This document shows positions 12,399 to 63,581 of a stretch of DNA of 64,000 nucleotides, in pieces. The position numbers and the translations under genes are program-made. The DNA lies in the NCBI GenBank assembly GCA_014879535.1, contig JACSRX010000008.1, forward strand, positions 1 through 64,000, read 5' to 3'. Positions within the stretch are counted from its first letter, which is position 1; every line of letters begins with the position of its first letter. This DNA is from Chthoniobacterales bacterium (GTDB taxonomy: Bacteria > Verrucomicrobiota > Verrucomicrobiia > Chthoniobacterales > JACTMZ01). Under the pieces are notes generated by a model. The model saw nothing but the letters and a program-made list of their open reading frames with translations, was not told the origin of the DNA and ran no database searches.

Positions 12399-13550
12399 AT
12401 GATGATTCGCAGGATACTTGCCTTGGCCGTGCTGGCGGTCCTTTCGACGCCGGCCTTTTCGCAGGATGCGCCGACGATCACGGTGCGGAAGGGTGACCGC
12501 GTTCCGGTGGCGGTCACACCGCTTGGGGGAAGTTCGGGGCCTGCCGTCACGAAAGTTCTGCAGAACGACCTCGATCTCTCGGGCTGGTTCCAGCTGGTGC
12601 CGGATTCCCGCGGGTCGTATGTCATCGGGGGATCCGCCTCCGGTGGAAGCCTGCAGGGGCGCGTCACGGACGGCAGCGGTGCCGTGGTGCTTTCGAAGAC
12701 CTACTCGGGCGACGACCGTTCGGTGGCGCACCAGTTTGCCGATGACATCGTGGAAACCCTCACCGGGCATCCCGGCATCGCCACGACGAAGGTCGCTTTT
12801 GTCGGCACGGCCAGCGGCGCGAAGGAAATTTACCTGGCGGACTATGACGGCAACAACTCACGCCGGCTCACGAGTGACCGCAGCATCAGCGTGGCTCCCT
12901 CGCTCGGGCCCGGCGCGCGCAATCTGGCCTACACCGGCTACCAGGGGGGTTATCCGGATGTCTATGTGATCGATGTCGCCTCCGGGGCGCGCCAGCGCGC
13001 GGTGTCGGCACCCGGCACCAACTCGGGAGCGGCTGTTTCGCCGGACGGAGGCCGGATGGCTCTCACCATGAGCAAGGATGGCAACCCTGAAATTTATGTC
13101 ACAGGTCTCCGTGGCGGGGGCGCCAAGCGCCTGACGCGCACGAAGGGCGTGGAGGCTTCGCCCGCATGGTCGCCGGACGGGCGCGAATTGATTTATTCGT
13201 CCGATGAGGGGGGGAGTCCCCAGCTTTACCGCATCGGCGCGGGCGGCGGCTCTCCGCGCCGCCTGAACACCGGCTTCGGCTACAACACCGATCCGAGCTG
13301 GTCTCCGGATGGCAAGCGGGTCGCCTTCACCGTGCGTTCGGGCGGCGGGTTCTCCGTGGCGGTAATGGATGCGGAAGGCGGCAATGCGCGCATCGTGGCT
13401 TCCGGGCAGAACCCCGTGTGGGGCCGCAATTCGCGGCACCTCATCTTCAGCAGCGGCTCGAGCCTCAATCTCCTTGACCTCAACACCGGACGGACCACAA
13501 CTATCGTCAGTGGCTTGGGCAAAGTGAGCGAACCGACGTGGTCGCACTGA
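12399..13550 (+). CDS. tolB: TolB-like beta-propeller protein of the Tol-Pal system
   Basis: A 383-residue periplasmic protein with a signal peptide (1-21, ending AFSQ). An N-terminal TolB domain spans about 25-130, including 'LQNDLDLSGWFQLV', which matches the family's 'DL--SG-F-'. A beta-propeller follows, with repeated 'SPDG' or 'PAWSPDGRELIYSS' blades (residues about 135-383). TolB links Pal in the outer membrane to the inner-membrane TolQRA complex and helps constrict the envelope at division. The pal gene follows immediately: its ATG lies 20 bases after the tolB stop. No tolQ, tolR or tolA is in the window. Length is slightly shorter than in Proteobacteria (about 430). Confidence 0.85.
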   Translation: MMIRRILALAVLAVLSTPAFSQDAPTITVRKGDRVPVAVTPLGGSSGPAVTKVLQNDLDLSGWFQLVPDSRGSYVIGGSASGGSLQGRVTDGSGAVVLSKTYSGDDRSVAHQFADDIVETLTGHPGIATTKVAFVGTASGAKEIYLADYDGNNSRRLTSDRSISVAPSLGPGARNLAYTGYQGGYPDVYVIDVASGARQRAVSAPGTNSGAAVSPDGGRMALTMSKDGNPEIYVTGLRGGGAKRLTRTKGVEASPAWSPDGRELIYSSDEGGSPQLYRIGAGGGSPRRLNTGFGYNTDPSWSPDGKRVAFTVRSGGGFSVAVMDAEGGNARIVASGQNPVWGRNSRHLIFSSGSSLNLLDLNTGRTTTIVSGLGKVSEPTWSH

Positions 13551-21227: not shown

Positions 21228-21506
21228 ATGGGGAGATCTCTCAAAAAGGGCCCGTTCGTCGAGGCCCACCTGCTCGAAAAAATCGACCGCATGAACGAAG
21301 GCGGCGCCAAGAAGCCCATCAAGACGTGGTCGCGCCGCTCCATGATCACGCCGGATTTCGTCGGGCACACCTTCCTCGTGCACAACGGGAAAATTTTCAA
21401 TTCAGTTTTCGTCACGGAGAACATGGTCGGGCACAAGCTCGGCGAATTCTCGCCCACGCGGATCTTCAAGAAACACGGTTCGCACACGGCGAAAGTGACG
21501 AAATAA
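21228..21506 (+). CDS. rpsS: 30S ribosomal protein uS19
   Basis: A 92-residue uS19 of the 30S head. It shows '[18 protein letters not shown]' (2-19), '[24 protein letters not shown]' in parts (about 34-57), and '[17 protein letters not shown]'. It normally pairs with rplV. Here an unrelated 292-residue gene follows two bases after its stop, before rplV. Confidence 0.98.
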
Positions 21507-21508
21507 AC

Positions 21509-22387
21509 GTGGCCTGGATCGGCAGGCTGGCCCTGGCGGGGTGTCTCTTTGTCACCTTCGCCGGAGTCGCCTCCGCCCAAAGCCACAGCTCTTTGACAGA
21601 CCGGGATTCTGGGGACGCCGCACAGGTGGCGCGCCTCCACGAACAGTTGTTGCTCGCCCGCGAGGCGATCCGCAATCTCACGGAAAGCTTGGCCTTGGCC
21701 AACAGCGAGGTCGAGGTGTTCAAGCGCCAGGCCGAGGATCTGCAGGCGAGGTTCGACGCGCTGGCACCGGGTGCCGGCGGCGGGGAGCTTGAAGAGAGGC
21801 TACTCTCCGCCACCAGCGAGCTCAGGCGATCGGAAAAGGAAAACGCCCTGCTCCTCGAGCGCCTGCTCGGGTTGTCCGAAGGTGTGCAGATTTTCCTCAA
21901 GACCGTCGAAACGGCCGGTGGGGAAGAGATGGAAGCCTTGACGGGGGATCTGCAGGCCAAAGCCGCGGATGCCTCCAACCCCGCGGCACAAGCCGAGGCA
22001 CAGTCCCTGCTTGCCGTGGTCCAACGCTCGCGCACCGCACAGGCCGAAGCCCGCGCGGCCATCGAAACCGAACTGCGCACCGCGGACCGCATGCTCGGAG
22101 TCGGCGCCGCCGATTCCCTTGATGACACCGCGGCGGGGGCGACCCTGACCGACGCATCCGTCGTGGAGATCAAGCCCGAGTTCGCCCTCGTCGTGGCCAA
22201 TATCGGCCGAGCCGCGGGCGTGCGCGTCGGGATGCCCTTCCAAGTGTGGCGCGACAACCGCCGCGTCGGTGATGTCCGTGTCATCGACGTCCGCGACCGC
22301 TTCAGCGGGGCCGTCGTCCAGAATCTCGTGTCCGAAGAAAACCCAATCCAAGCAGGTGACCGCCTCCGGGTGGACGCCCGCCGCTAG
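21509..22387 (+). CDS. novel secreted coiled-coil protein inserted between rpsS and rplV
   Basis: This 292-residue gene has no place in the usual S10 operon. It starts with GTG two bases after rpsS and ends 28 bases before rplV. A signal peptide is visible (residues 1-23, ending VASAQ). A long coiled coil covers about 35-125 (repeated Leu/Ala/Glu heptads such as 'LHEQLLLAREAIRNLTESL'), then an Ala-rich helical region, then a compact C-terminal beta domain from about residue 215 ('EIKPEFALVVANIGRAAGVRVGMPFQVW', quoted in meaning only by its first and last parts; ends 'IQAGDRLRVDARR'). The C-terminal pattern resembles beta-barrel domains in cell-wall or flagellar periplasmic proteins. It would be exported while its neighbours act on the ribosome. 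The function is unknown. Confidence 0.8.
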   Translation: MAWIGRLALAGCLFVTFAGVASAQSHSSLTDRDSGDAAQVARLHEQLLLAREAIRNLTESLALANSEVEVFKRQAEDLQARFDALAPGAGGGELEERLLSATSELRRSEKENALLLERLLGLSEGVQIFLKTVETAGGEEMEALTGDLQAKAADASNPAAQAEAQSLLAVVQRSRTAQAEARAAIETELRTADRMLGVGAADSLDDTAAGATLTDASVVEIKPEFALVVANIGRAAGVRVGMPFQVWRDNRRVGDVRVIDVRDRFSGAVVQNLVSEENPIQAGDRLRVDARR

Positions 22388-22415
22388 ACAAAGAAACACA
22401 CAAAAATTTAACAAC

Positions 22416-22889
22416 ATGGAAACCAGGTCGATTTACCGGTTCGCCCGCATCTCGCCGTTCAAGGCGCGCGAGGTGACACGCGAGATCCAGGGACTGCCCG
22501 TGCAGCAGGCCCTTGATCTGCTTGCCTTCACGCCCAAGAAGGCTGCGGGTCTCGTGGCCAAGACGCTGAAGAGCGCCGTGGCCAACGCCGAGAACAACCA
22601 CCAAGCCCGCGTCGAGAGCCTGGTTGTCCGCGAAGCCGTGGTGGGCGAGGGACCGACCGCCAACCGCTTCATCCCGAAGGCCCGCGGCAGCGCCGGTCCG
22701 ATCCGCAAGCGCACCAGCCACATCCGCATCATTCTCACCGACGAAATCGAGATCCAGACCCGCGAGAAAAGGAAGGCCGCCAAGGCCAAGACGCGCAAGC
22801 CGTCGGCCAGAAAGGCCGCAGTCAAGAAACAGGCCGCCAAACCCGCCGCCACCGAAGCCGACGCACCGGCCGCGGAGGAAACCAAATAA
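22416..22889 (+). CDS. rplV: 50S ribosomal protein uL22 with basic C-terminal tail
   Basis: A 157-residue uL22. The core '[19 protein letters not shown]' (about 9-27), 'VANAENNHQ' and '[20 protein letters not shown]' (about 82-101) is standard and lines the exit tunnel. The last 45 residues are a Lys/Ala-rich tail ending in acidic 'APAAEETK', longer than in E. coli (110 residues in total). It is preceded by a 28-base A-rich gap (AAAGAAACACACAAAAATTTAACAAC) with no Shine-Dalgarno. The start at 22416 is chosen because it opens the conserved core; the longer frame is inside the upstream gene. Confidence 0.96.
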
Positions 22890-22893
22890 CACC

Positions 22894-23583
22894 ATGGGAC
22901 AAAAAGTTCACCCGATCGGCTTCCGCCTTCCGCTCTCCCGCGACTGGGGATCGAAGTGGTATGCCCCGCGCAAGGATTTTGCCGACCACCTGCATGCGGA
23001 CATCAAGATCCGCGAGCACCTCAAGAACAAACTCCGCCAGGCCGCGGTTGCCAAGATCGTCATCGAGCGCGCTTGGAACAGCCTGCGTGTGACCATTTTC
23101 ACGGCCCGCCCGGGTCTCGTCATCGGCCGCAAGGGTTCCGAGATCGAGACCATGACCCGCGAGGTCGCGGCCCTGTCCGGCGACAAGCAGGTCAAGATCG
23201 ACATCCAGGAGATCCGTTCCCCGGAGATCGACGCCCAGCTCGTTGCGGAAAGCGTGGCCGGCCAGCTCGAGCGGCGCATTTCCTTCCGCCGCGCCATGAA
23301 GCGCGCCGTGCAGATCGCGATGGAACAGGGGGCCCTCGGCATCAAGATCCGTTGCTCCGGCCGCCTTGGCGGCGCGGAGATCGCGCGCACCGAGTGGTAT
23401 CGCGAGGGCAAAGTGCCGCTTCACACCATGCGCACACCGATCGATTACGGCTTCACCGAGGCCAAGACGGTCGCCGGAACCGTCGGCGTGAAGTGCTGGA
23501 TCTGCAAGGTCGAGGAGGCGCCCAAGGCCGCGCGCGAGGAAGCGCCGACACCACCCCCGCCGCCACCGGCCCCCGAAGCCTGA
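22894..23583 (+). CDS. rpsC: 30S ribosomal protein uS3
   Basis: A 229-residue uS3 with '[17 protein letters not shown]' (2-18), the KH domain motif '[10 protein letters not shown]' (about 78-87), '[20 protein letters not shown]' and '[22 protein letters not shown]' in parts. It forms the mRNA entry site with uS4 and uS5. The last 20 residues are Glu/Pro-rich (a run of six Pro), a non-globular tail. It starts four bases after rplV. The frame that begins at 22624 lies inside rplV and is rejected. Confidence 0.97.
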
Positions 23584-58889: not shown

Positions 58890-61043
58890 TCAGCGGCGAG
58901 CAGGTTTTTGTTTGGGTTCCTTGTTTCGTCCGCCGAAAAGGCGCTGGAAAATGTTGGGTTTCTTCTGGACGGTGCCCTCGGCATCGGCCGCGGGGCGAAC
59001 GTTGGGGGGCTCGGTCCCCTGCGGCGGCCCCTCGGAGGCGGCGAGATCCTCGCCGGCGGGTGCGGCGGCGAGGGCCGCGGGGATCGGGCGGCCGAAGTCC
59101 ACGCTGTCCACGAATTGGAAGCTGCCCTTGGCCGGCTCGAGGGAGGCGATTTTGATTTCCTCGCCCTCCTCCATCTTGAAGGTGTCTGCGAGGATCTTCG
59201 CCGCGATCGGCGCAGCGACGCCGCCGCCGGATTTCGCGCCCTGGACGATGACAGCCACGGCGTAGCGCGGGTTGTCGAATGGCGCGAAGGCGATGAACCA
59301 CGTGTGGTTGTCCTTGATGCCTCCGCGCGAGAATTGCGCGGTGCCCGTCTTGCCGGCGACCTCGTAGTTCTTGATGCGTGCTGTGGCGGCAGTGCCTCCC
59401 GCGCGGTTGACCACGTCCCACATGCCCTGACGGACACGCTGGATCTGCTCGTGGGTGAGGCCGTTTTCCGCGAGGCTGGCGCGGATTTTGACGGGCTCCT
59501 GCCGGGCGATGCTGCCGTCGGGCTCGATGATCTGGTCCACCAGGCGCGGATAGTAGCTGGTGCCCCCGTTGGCCACGGTGGCGGCGACCACGGCCATCTG
59601 GAGCGGTGTGGCAAGGACGGACCCTTGGCCGATGGAGGTGTTGGCCGTGTAGCCGGAGGACCAGCGCTCACGCGGGAAGTTGGCTTGCAGCCATGCGGGT
59701 CCGGGAAGGATGCCGGGCGCCTCGCCGGAGAGGGGAACCCCGGAGCGCTGTCCCAAGCCGAGCATGTTGCCCACGGCGACGATCTGGTCGATGCCGGCGG
59801 CGTTGCCGTATTGGTAGAAAAAGGCGTTGCAGGAGACGCGGATGGCCGATTCGAGGTCGAGGGTGCCGTGCGCACCCTTCTTGTCGGCGATCCAGCATTT
59901 CATGAAATGGGTGCCGTATTGCACGCCGCCGCTGCAGTTGAAGCGGCGCGTGTCGAGGCCGGCGCGCAGGCCGGCCAGCGCGGTGGGGATCTTGTAGGTC
60001 GATCCGGGGGCGTAGGCGCTGAGGGCGCGGTTGATGAGCGGGTCGGTGGGGTCGCCGGTGAGATCGTTCCACGCGGGGGCGGAGATGGCGGGGATGAACG
60101 TGTTCGGGTCGTAGGACGGGACGCTGGCCATGGCGAGGATGTCGCCGTTGTTGGGATCGATGACGACGACAGCGGCGCGGCCGACGGCGCGCAGGGCCTT
60201 CTCCGCGATGTATTGGATGCGGGCATCGATCGTGAGCTTGATGCTGCGGCCCTGCACCGGGGGGGTGAGCCCGATTTCGCCCTCGATGACTCCCTTGGCG
60301 TTGCGTTGGAGGATGCGCGCCCCGGGGCTGCCGCGGAGGTCCGCGTCGAAGGCCTTCTCCAGCTGTGCCTTTCCCTCGGCGTCGGGCTGGTAAAAGTTGA
60401 AACGGGCGGCGTCCTCCTTGTCGATCTCGTTGGGCGCGCCGACATAGCCGAGGAAGTGCGAACCCATCGCGCCGTAGGCGTAGCGGCGCACCGGGCGCAG
60501 GGTGACGTTGACCCCGGCGAGCCCCACGTCGTGCTCGGCGAATTTGGCCATGGTCTCGAAGTCGAGGTCCTCCATGTAGGTGTAGGGGACCTCCGTATTG
60601 TTGCGGAAGTGAAGGCGCAGCTGGTTGGCGTTGTAATCGCGGGCCAGCCCGAGTTCCTGCAGCCGCGGCATGACCGTCTCGTTGACGATCTTGACGATGT
60701 CCGGCTCGGATTTCTCGGTCATCATTCCCCGCACGGTGGTGCGGTAGGTGTGCCGGGGCACGTCGCCGAAACGCGCTCGGTAATCGCGGACCATGTCGGG
60801 CAGGTAGAACTCGACGGCGTTGCTGGCGCGGTTCTCCGCGAGGGCGACCTTGTTGCGGTCGAGGATCTCACCGCGCACGGCGGGAAGGCGGACGTTGACC
60901 TGCGAATTGTTGCGGATGCGCGCGGTGTATTCCTCGCCGCGGGCGACCTGGACATACCAGAGACGGGCGCCCAGCAGCGCGAACCCGGCCAGGGCGATGG
61001 CCCCGATCACCGCAAAGCGGAATTCAGACGTGCGGCGAATCAT
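58890..61043 (-). CDS. mrdA: penicillin-binding protein 2 (peptidoglycan transpeptidase)
   Basis: A 717-residue class B PBP anchored by one N-terminal helix (about 8-28). The pedestal region covers about 40-270. In the transpeptidase domain the catalytic SxxK is Ser348-Thr-Tyr-Lys351, the SxN motif is Ser404-Cys-Asn, and the KTG motif starts at Lys565. PBP2 works with MreBCD in lateral wall growth. The C-terminal ~70 residues are a Pro/Lys-rich tail. ATG at 61043 overlaps the mreD stop by four bases. No rodA is adjacent, which differs from E. coli. Confidence 0.95.
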   Translation of the reverse strand: MIRRTSEFRFAVIGAIALAGFALLGARLWYVQVARGEEYTARIRNNSQVNVRLPAVRGEILDRNKVALAENRASNAVEFYLPDMVRDYRARFGDVPRHTYRTTVRGMMTEKSEPDIVKIVNETVMPRLQELGLARDYNANQLRLHFRNNTEVPYTYMEDLDFETMAKFAEHDVGLAGVNVTLRPVRRYAYGAMGSHFLGYVGAPNEIDKEDAARFNFYQPDAEGKAQLEKAFDADLRGSPGARILQRNAKGVIEGEIGLTPPVQGRSIKLTIDARIQYIAEKALRAVGRAAVVVIDPNNGDILAMASVPSYDPNTFIPAISAPAWNDLTGDPTDPLINRALSAYAPGSTYKIPTALAGLRAGLDTRRFNCSGGVQYGTHFMKCWIADKKGAHGTLDLESAIRVSCNAFFYQYGNAAGIDQIVAVGNMLGLGQRSGVPLSGEAPGILPGPAWLQANFPRERWSSGYTANTSIGQGSVLATPLQMAVVAATVANGGTSYYPRLVDQIIEPDGSIARQEPVKIRASLAENGLTHEQIQRVRQGMWDVVNRAGGTAATARIKNYEVAGKTGTAQFSRGGIKDNHTWFIAFAPFDNPRYAVAVIVQGAKSGGGVAAPIAAKILADTFKMEEGEEIKIASLEPAKGSFQFVDSVDFGRPIPAALAAAPAGEDLAASEGPPQGTEPPNVRPAADAEGTVQKKPNIFQRLFGGRNKEPKQKPARR

Positions 61044-61582
61044 GAACCAAGGCGTCCTCTCCGTCGGATGCGGTCGGGGGATCCGGCGGGAAGGATGCGG
61101 AAAAGGACATAGATGAGCGGCGCGGCGAGGAGCGCCAGCACGGCGGGGCTGACGATCTGCCAGGCCACCGTTTGGTTGAAGAGGAACGATTCCCGGCGAA
61201 GGCAGACCATGAGGTATTGCCCGAGAAGCAGGAGCAGGGTGACGACACCCGACGCGAGGCAGTGGATTTCCCACCGCCCCGAGAGGAAGGGGCGGCGGAA
61301 TGTGTTGAGGACCGTCCCGAGAAGGACATAGCAGAGCATAGACCAGCCGAGCCCGATTTCAACACGGTCACCGATGACGTGCAGGTTTGCAAGGTCGCTG
61401 ACGAACCCCGTGTAAAGGGCGAGTCCGAGCATGGCGGGGAAGGGCAGCCAGAGCGCGCCGTAGCAGAACAGCGCGGGGACGAGGAGGACGCGCGCATCGT
61501 CGAGAAACGCCAGGGGAGGGATGAATTCCTGGAGGATGACGGCGGCATAAATGGCCGCCACGAGGACGAGGGCGCGGATCAT
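61040..61582 (-). CDS. mreD: rod shape-determining protein MreD
   Basis: A 180-residue polytopic membrane protein with about five helices, in the normal position between mreC and mrdA. 'LVLVAAIYAAVILQEFIPPLAFLDDARVLLVPALFCYGALWLP' in parts is a typical MreD opening, and the rest is hydrophobic. Sequence conservation in this family is low, so the call rests on size, topology and operon position. It overlaps both neighbours by four bases (ATGA). Confidence 0.85.
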   Translation of the reverse strand: MIRALVLVAAIYAAVILQEFIPPLAFLDDARVLLVPALFCYGALWLPFPAMLGLALYTGFVSDLANLHVIGDRVEIGLGWSMLCYVLLGTVLNTFRRPFLSGRWEIHCLASGVVTLLLLLGQYLMVCLRRESFLFNQTVAWQIVSPAVLALLAAPLIYVLFRILPAGSPDRIRRRGRLGS

Positions 61583-62385
61583 CGGGTGCCGAGGACGACG
61601 AAGACATCCTCCAAGCGGGAAAAATCCGCCGCGGGTGCCACGAGGGCCTGGCCGTCGAGTTCGCGCGTGCGGAATTCCTTGATCTCCCCGAGGAGGATGC
61701 CCGCGGGGAAAACCGCGCCGCTCACGCCGGCGGTGAAGACCTTCATGCCGGGCTGGAGGTCGGCGTCGCGGTTGAGGAAATTGAGGACGAGTTCGGGTGC
61801 GGCGTTTCCGGTGACGCGGCGGCCGCTGAGGATGCCCTGTTCGTTGGTGCCCTCCACGCGGGCGGCCACCTGGCAGTTCTCGTCGGTGAGGAGCATGACG
61901 ATGGTGACATCCTTGGCCACGGTGGTGGTGCGGCCGACCAGCCCCTCGGCCGTGAGCACGGGCTGCGCGGAGTCCAGCCCCTCGGCGAAGCCGCGGTTGA
62001 TCTTGACGGTGTTCCACCAGCTCGAGGCGTCGCGGCTGATGATCTCGGCGGGAAGAAGCCGGAAGGCGGAGCGTTCGCTGTAGGCGAGGGCCGAGCGCAG
62101 GCGGCGGTTCTCGGCGTCGAGTTCCCCGAGCAGCTGGTTGGTCGCGCGGAGCTCGCTGTTTTGCGCGGTGAGCACGGCGTTCTCGGCCTCGAGCTCGTCA
62201 AGGGTCTTGAGCCCCGTGTTCAGCTTGGAGATGCTGGTGCTCAGGGCCGAGCCGGCCTTGAGGGCCGGGGTGGACACGTCGAGGAAGCGGCTCTGCCACG
62301 CCTTCATGCGCTCGGGCGAGAAGGCGAGGAAAACGAGCGCGACAAGAACCGCAAGCGCGAGCAGGACGAGGTGCAGCTTGTTCAT
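61579..62385 (-). CDS. mreC: rod shape-determining protein MreC
   Basis: A 268-residue protein with an N-terminal membrane anchor (about 5-24), a coiled coil (about 60-100, 'LDELEAENAVLTAQNSELRATNQLLGELDAENRRLRS' in parts) and two beta domains. 'VLTAEGLVGRTTTVAKDVTIVMLLTDEN' in parts and 'FPAGILLGEIKEF' are recognisable. MreC links the cytoplasmic MreB filament to periplasmic PBPs. It follows mreB by 41 bases and overlaps mreD by four. Confidence 0.92.
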   Translation of the reverse strand: MNKLHLVLLALAVLVALVFLAFSPERMKAWQSRFLDVSTPALKAGSALSTSISKLNTGLKTLDELEAENAVLTAQNSELRATNQLLGELDAENRRLRSALAYSERSAFRLLPAEIISRDASSWWNTVKINRGFAEGLDSAQPVLTAEGLVGRTTTVAKDVTIVMLLTDENCQVAARVEGTNEQGILSGRRVTGNAAPELVLNFLNRDADLQPGMKVFTAGVSGAVFPAGILLGEIKEFRTRELDGQALVAPAADFSRLEDVFVVLGTR

Positions 62386-62426
62386 CGGAGCGGAAATCCG
62401 GATGCCGCGCGGAGGCGGGTGACGGT

Positions 62427-63479
62427 TCAGGCGGCGGCCGTGGCGCGCATGCCGCTGCTCTGCGCCGCGATGCTGCGGAGCACCTCGATCTCGCTGAGCA
62501 CGCGGCCCGTGCCCTCGGCCACGGCACTGAGCGGATCGTCGGCGATGTGGACCGGGAGACCGGTCTCCTCGCGCAGCAACTGGTCGAGCCCGCGCAGGAG
62601 CGCCCCGCCGCCGGCAAGGACCATTCCGCGGTCCACGAGGTCGGACGAGAGTTCGGGCGGACAGCGCTCGAGGGTGGTGCGGACCGCATCGACAATGCTG
62701 TTGAGCGGCTCGGCCAGGGCCTCGCGCACCTCCTGGGAGGTGAGGGTGATGGTTTTCGGAAGGCCAGCCACGAGGTCGCGGCCCTTGACTTCCATGGAGT
62801 TTTCCTTGGGCAGCTTCACCGCCGAGCCCAGTTTGATCTTGATGTCTTCGGCCGTGCGCTCGCCGATGTGCAGGTTGAAGTTGCGTTTGACGTATTGGAC
62901 GATGGCCTCGTCGAGTTCGTCGCCCGCCACGCGCACGCTGCGGCTGAAGACGATCCCGGCGAGCGAGATCAACGCGACCTCGGTGGTGCCGCCGCCGATG
63001 TCGATGATCATGTTGCCCGCCGCTTCCTGGATCGGCAGGCCGACCCCGATGGCGGCGGCCATCGGCTCCTCGATGAGGTAAACTTCGCGCGCCCCGGCAT
63101 GGGTGGCGGAATCCTTGACCGCGCGCTTCTCCACCTCGGTGATCCCGGAGGGCACGGCGATGACCACGCGCGGACGCACCATGCGCCGGCCGCCGTGGGC
63201 CTTGCTGATGAGGTGCGACAACATGGCCTCCGTGATTTCAAAATCGGCAATCACACCGTCCTTGAGCGGGCGGATGGCAACGATGTTGCCGGGGGTGCGT
63301 CCGAGCATCCGCTTGGCCTCGTTGCCGACGGCCAGGACCTTGTTCGTGCCGGCTTGGACCGCGACAACTGACGGCTCGCGCAGAACGATGCCTTGGTCCC
63401 TGACAAAAACGAGTGTGTTGGCCGTGCCGAGATCAATCCCGATGTCACTCGAGAACAGGCCGAAAAATTTTCTGAACAT
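62427..63479 (-). CDS. mreB: rod shape-determining protein MreB
   Basis: A 350-residue bacterial actin that forms membrane-associated filaments guiding wall synthesis. '[15 protein letters not shown]' (about 11-25) is phosphate-1, '[17 protein letters not shown]' phosphate-2, and '[14 protein letters not shown]' the adenosine site. The N-terminal '[12 protein letters not shown]' may form the membrane-binding helix. Start ATG at 63479 is set by the family; the frame is open 102 bases further. It heads the operon mreB-mreC-mreD-mrdA-rng. Confidence 0.96.
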
Positions 63480-63552
63480 TAGGGTGGGCTTGGGGACGGG
63501 ACCCCAAGGGTTGGTGGTGTCAATGTGCCTCCGCGGAGGCGAAAAGGGCTGG

Positions 63553-63581
63553 ATTAATCCATGTTCCGCTTCTGGGGTCAA
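63553..63581 (-). promoter_or_regulatory. putative mreB operon promoter
   Basis: On the minus strand TTGACC (63581 to 63576), a 17-base spacer and ATTAAT (63558 to 63553) form a moderate sigma-70-type promoter, about 74 bases before the mreB ATG. Confidence 0.45.

Follow-up and report, generated by a model that had tools for sequence, protein, structure and literature searches.

The genes rpsS and rplV form one of the most stable pairs in bacteria and are almost always direct neighbours. What, then, does a gene for a putatively exported protein do between them in a member of the Chthoniobacterales, and does its position within the S10 operon matter? We followed this locus from its layout within a 64,000-nt stretch of DNA (the window) to its counterparts in relatives.

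A gene embedded in the S10 operon

The plus strand of the window encodes rplB (L2; 20385–21224), rpsS (S19; 21228–21506), the embedded gene, hereafter X (21509–22387), rplV (L22; 22416–22889) and rpsC (S3; 22894–23583). The ribosomal genes were assigned by homology, supplemented by the open reading frame for rplB and by Pfam matches for rpsS (PF00203; G000:C88:21234–21476) and rplV (PF00237; G000:C88:22437–22739). X, defined by its open reading frame and by homologous loci, is a single-copy gene whose translation yielded 292 stop-free codons, and the coordinates of the initial annotation, which had described a gene embedded between rpsS and rplV with a two-base upstream gap, proved exact. The rpsS stop ends at position 21506 and is followed, after 2 nt, by the GTG start of X in a weak context devoid of a clear Shine-Dalgarno motif. 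A 28-nt spacer (22388–22415) separates the X stop from the ATG of rplV at 22416.

Inspection of this spacer revealed neither a promoter-like nor a plus-strand terminator-like site, and the entire rpsS–rplV interval was found to be free of promoter-like sites. Six terminator-like patterns in the interval (against a mean of 3.2 in shuffled sequence) represent a mild excess only, and the sole plus-strand pattern, a 5-pair stem, falls within the signal-peptide region of X. An Rfam search of the S10 operon region returned zero leader RNA matches. As X lies on the same strand as its neighbours, with gaps of 2 and 28 nt and no internal promoter-like site, it is likely co-transcribed with rpsS and rplV.

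Conservation within the order

Most sampled Verrucomicrobiota relatives carry X between rpsS and rplV, as does this bacterium. A single-sequence search found X matches in 42 of 57 genomes of the genus and order, and the gene order rpsS–X–rplV was retained in all 140 loci recovered by homology (L001–L140), a set that partly overlaps in that some loci share one genome (one subset comprises 102 distinct X genes) and that includes named Chthoniobacterales/Spartobacteria metagenome-assembled genomes. Within the genus, the GTG start and 2-nt gap, like frame and position, were kept in 10/10 loci. The insertion is thus conserved far beyond the assembly, with further families adding to the 140 concordant loci, and instead of being unique to this genome with a broken frame in relatives, X is intact across them. 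The embedded gene is genuine, and its conservation is of wider scope than the initial annotation had supposed. That X might be an assembly or annotation artefact, or a recent insertion, can be dismissed with near certainty, as independent genomes and collections are concordant and nothing was found in favour of such a reading.

X evolves under purifying selection, with a median dN/dS of 0.17 (0.05–0.08 for the neighbouring ribosomal genes). In a mirror-tree comparison of the 102 distinct loci, pairwise X distances tracked those of RplB+RpsS+RplP (Pearson r = 0.89). The low dN/dS together with the mirrored ribosomal-protein distances therefore identifies X as a vertically inherited, working gene.

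Trimming and loss across the phylum

Sampling covered one phylum, Verrucomicrobiota, within which X is known. In the class, the spacing between S19 and L22 domain matches was measured in 138 genomes and tallied by eye from the tables: ~73 genomes had X-sized spacing, 13 had 400–490 nt, 8 had 120–265 nt and 39 had <90 nt, with the remainder being losses within the order. Each of the fully read X-sized gaps L161–L179, L193 and L194 contained an X homologue (E-values of 1e-16 to 1e-52); the sole exception among the X-sized gaps read was a 604-nt gap in G013 (L180), in which no X homologue was found. Gaps of 400–490 nt encode a 108–130-aa protein with an export signal and a barrel, lacking the coiled coil. 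The profile of these short proteins aligns with the X barrel (hhalign probability 97.8%, E = 7e-13), two of them (L182, L183) being assigned only via the group alignment of the short barrel proteins.

Outside the class, further families of the phylum likewise harbour an X-like protein between rpsS and rplV (L153–L156, L158–L160). In several others the S10 operon is split between these two genes and X heads the rplV half (L212–L219); X directly upstream of rplV, with rpsS elsewhere, was observed in G083, G117, G167, G174, G178, G211, G243, G260, G270, G281 and G323. Family f5, on the other hand, represents a clean loss, rplV following right after rpsS (L228), and X is also missing from f13/g20, two 0.9-Mb genomes, G013 and many further families of the class. 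In lineages that have lost the operon-encoded X, a search for a relocated gene turned up no full-length copy. As X was lost in several families, it is not required everywhere, and any coupling it may provide is not indispensable. Most simply, these sequence comparisons suggest that X joined the operon in the ancestor of Verrucomicrobiota (in the GTDB sense) or close to it, with trimming and losses following later.

Two lineages deserve separate mention. The 0.9-Mb genomes (L191, L192), each a single contig and probably from reduced symbionts, retain 190–360 nt between the S19 and L22 matches and lack an X-like frame; the residual spacing possibly represents gene remains. In one family, by contrast in size, X has grown to 558 aa (L175:1042–2722, minus strand), with the extra length consisting of a long low-complexity segment rich in Pro, Ala, Thr and Lys ahead of the coiled coil.

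An exported protein with a predicted coiled coil and C-terminal barrel

The N-terminus of X is signal-peptide-like, reading VAWIGRLALAGCLFVTFAGVASA followed by Q, with a hydrophobic export signal at residues 1–23 (21509–21577, plus strand) that is recognizable in the sequence and in the hydropathy of homologues. Cleavage likely occurs after ASA and before Q24. The genus also shares an LAGC at residues 9–12, which is probably located too early to be a lipobox, while the A/Q junction near residue 23 is more widely kept. Of 116 distinct X homologues, 111 had a hydrophobic N-terminus, as judged by simple hydropathy and not by a trained predictor, and on this measure X bears the N-terminal signal or anchor of an exported envelope protein. 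The type of anchor differs by lineage and comprises cleavable signals, apparently uncleaved transmembrane segments (L153, L155) and a lipobox (L160). Varied anchors combined with constant N-terminal hydrophobicity therefore suggest a constant extracytoplasmic site for X. That X is a ribosomal protein can be ruled out given the export signal and the absence of any ribosomal-family match in Pfam or NCBIfam.

AlphaFold2, run with 29 sequences, predicted helices at residues 35–85, 92–135, 138–154 and 158–196, and a barrel at 217–288 with a pLDDT of about 90. The long helices (residues 35–196; 21611–22096, plus strand) constitute a predicted coiled coil, into which the genus has placed a helical insert of ~40 residues (~135–174 by alignment; 21911–22030, plus strand) that is found neither in the congener L010 nor in other families. 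Alignment, AlphaFold2 and Foldseek together delimit a six-stranded, FlgT_C/MreC-like barrel with the motif V-x-DVR (residues 213–290; 22145–22378, plus strand). The pTM of the whole-chain model was low (0.33); modelled alone, the barrel was confident (mean pLDDT 88.7, pTM 0.77). The proposal of an exported protein with a long coiled coil and a C-terminal beta domain thus agrees with both hydropathy and the structure predictions. Conserved residues concentrate in the barrel (VxDVR, GD) and near N65-E67-E69 of the coiled coil.

Pfam and NCBIfam scans of X yielded no model above its own cut-off. Matches to the eukaryotic coiled-coil proteins Bap31, liprin and tetherin were discounted as composition-driven. 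The F1/V1-ATPase barrels among the Foldseek matches were set aside as well, since they reflect a generic small-barrel likeness.

The genome encodes a second protein combining a transmembrane anchor, a coiled coil and a similar barrel (L233:1402–2265, minus strand; 287 aa; profile E = 2e-4), located at G000:C27, about 12826–12972. In other lineages, such proteins occur as tandem pairs (L200, L207, L208).

Proposed role and alternative explanations

In bacteria, the envelope has to expand in keeping with ribosome-driven mass growth. One way to read the location of X is the hypothesis that it links envelope growth with ribosome synthesis. The initial annotation had gone further in stating that X is made in step with ribosomes, a claim that codon usage does not bear out: X was less ribosomal-like than the neighbouring ribosomal genes in 98 of 109 loci, and lies near the median of the other genes in the window. 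This ordinary codon usage counts against strict dosage coupling; the mRNA is therefore probably shared, and the yield of X protein probably lower.

We favour, at a probability of roughly 55%, a reading that sees X as an ancestral, non-ribosomal component of the S10 operon, co-transcribed with it and encoding an exported scaffold or tether of the envelope. Judged from its position, X would be transcribed together with rpsS and rplV, and its translation would probably be coupled, following that of rpsS. The N-terminal signal would export the protein, leaving it anchored in the membrane or periplasm, where the helices would probably assemble into an oligomerizing coiled-coil rod that presents the C-terminal FlgT_C/MreC-like barrel for protein-protein contacts. 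Based on this architecture, X may act as an envelope scaffold or tether, the supply of its mRNA rising and falling with ribosome production. The stronger version—a Verrucomicrobiota device dedicated to linking envelope assembly with ribosome synthesis by means of a periplasmic scaffold at an S10-controlled dose, inherited since the ancestor of the phylum—appears unlikely to us.

The most serious competitor treats X as an ordinary envelope protein whose gene ended up in the operon of an early ancestor and stayed there because disruption of the operon is costly; the position would then carry no regulatory meaning. Though we doubt it, this account deserves consideration, as the unremarkable codon usage, the weak start context and the clean loss from several lineages would all be expected of such a passenger. 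It fits less well with X remaining attached to rplV when the operon breaks, and with the lack of full-length relocated copies in lineages without the operon gene; these two observations suggest that the position is important, or else that lineages simply tolerate losing X.

Alternatively, X may be a FlgT-like structural part of an envelope machine, for example of a ring or a secretion assembly, and not a general scaffold. FlgT_C being the best match of the barrel in both sequence and fold points in this direction, as do the additional proteins of transmembrane, coiled-coil and barrel architecture in the genome and its relatives, some of them in tandem; yet neither FlgT_N nor FlgT_M was found and machine genes are absent beside X, which makes such a role improbable. 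We consider it more improbable still that X acts mainly in cis, its translation and export serving to hold the S10 mRNA at the membrane or to tune translation of rplV and downstream genes while the protein is secondary. The close spacing of X to rpsS and rplV would suit this idea, but purifying selection acts on the protein sequence, whose unchanged residues lie far from the signal, mainly in the barrel.

Implications

A search of open-licence publications yielded no paper on a gene that separates rpsS from rplV in Verrucomicrobiota, and X apparently constitutes an undescribed, phylum-scale family of exported proteins kept in the S10 operon. A hard-wired operon link between envelope and ribosome production, if true, would offer a direct handle on how envelope and mass growth are matched. 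Should X homologues be confirmed in culturable, transposon-mutagenized relatives, the idea would be testable at once. For instance, a saturated transposon library exists for Verrucomicrobium spinosum (PMC12283558) and may already contain a first answer as to the function of X. Targeted mutagenesis is also available in V. spinosum. Even with a passive link, X is useful as a strong synteny marker of the phylum, and it is a target among the conserved proteins of unknown function there.

Comparison with known systems

FlgT, a protein of the flagellar H-ring of Vibrio, is the best match of X in fold. It ranked first in Foldseek searches (rank 1–2 for the barrel fold), ahead of MreC with modest E-values when the whole X chain was used, and ahead of generic small barrels including MreC for the barrel alone. 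The fold match to FlgT had a probability of 1.00, yet E-values of 1e-4 to 7e-3. In sequence, FlgT_C matched weakly in 19 of 29 members (best E = 1.1e-4), X itself scoring 20.1 bits, short of the cut-off of 27. X and the FlgT C-terminal domain (PF16538) have a similar barrel fold and a weak resemblance in the sequence of the first strands, and both proteins are exported. Unlike FlgT, X possesses a long coiled coil and no flagellar neighbours, and the Pfam scan listed only the sub-cut-off FlgT_C in X, with FlgT_N and FlgT_M absent, which rules out that X is FlgT.

MreC resembles X in architecture, an N-terminal membrane segment being followed by a coiled coil and then a beta domain, with fold matches to 2j5u, 7eft and 6zlv. 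X has one barrel where MreC has two, and the likeness is one of fold and not of sequence profile: PF04085, the MreC barrel core, was not listed for X and matched 3 of 29 members (best E = 0.055), and hhalign of X against the genome's own MreC gave 0.1–0.8%. Moreover, the canonical mreBCD cluster is found in the same window (61040–63581, minus strand; mreB 62427–63581, mreC 61579–62385 and an mreD-like frame), whereas X sits in the S10 operon, away from any mreB or mreD. Sequence and the presence of the true mreBCD together rule out that X is MreC.

With respect to genomic setting, X parallels secY, a near-universal translocon gene in the spc ribosomal operon and hence likewise an envelope/export gene inside a ribosomal-protein operon. 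Whereas the translocon gene secY is near-universal, X was detected only in Verrucomicrobiota, the sole phylum sampled. As a conserved protein typical of PVC bacteria and without known function, X finally recalls CT421.2, a PVC signature protein of 53 to about 80 aa whose function is likewise unknown (PMC3444138). X differs from this short protein (PMC3444138) in its length of about 230–310 aa, its export, and its combination of a coiled coil with a barrel.
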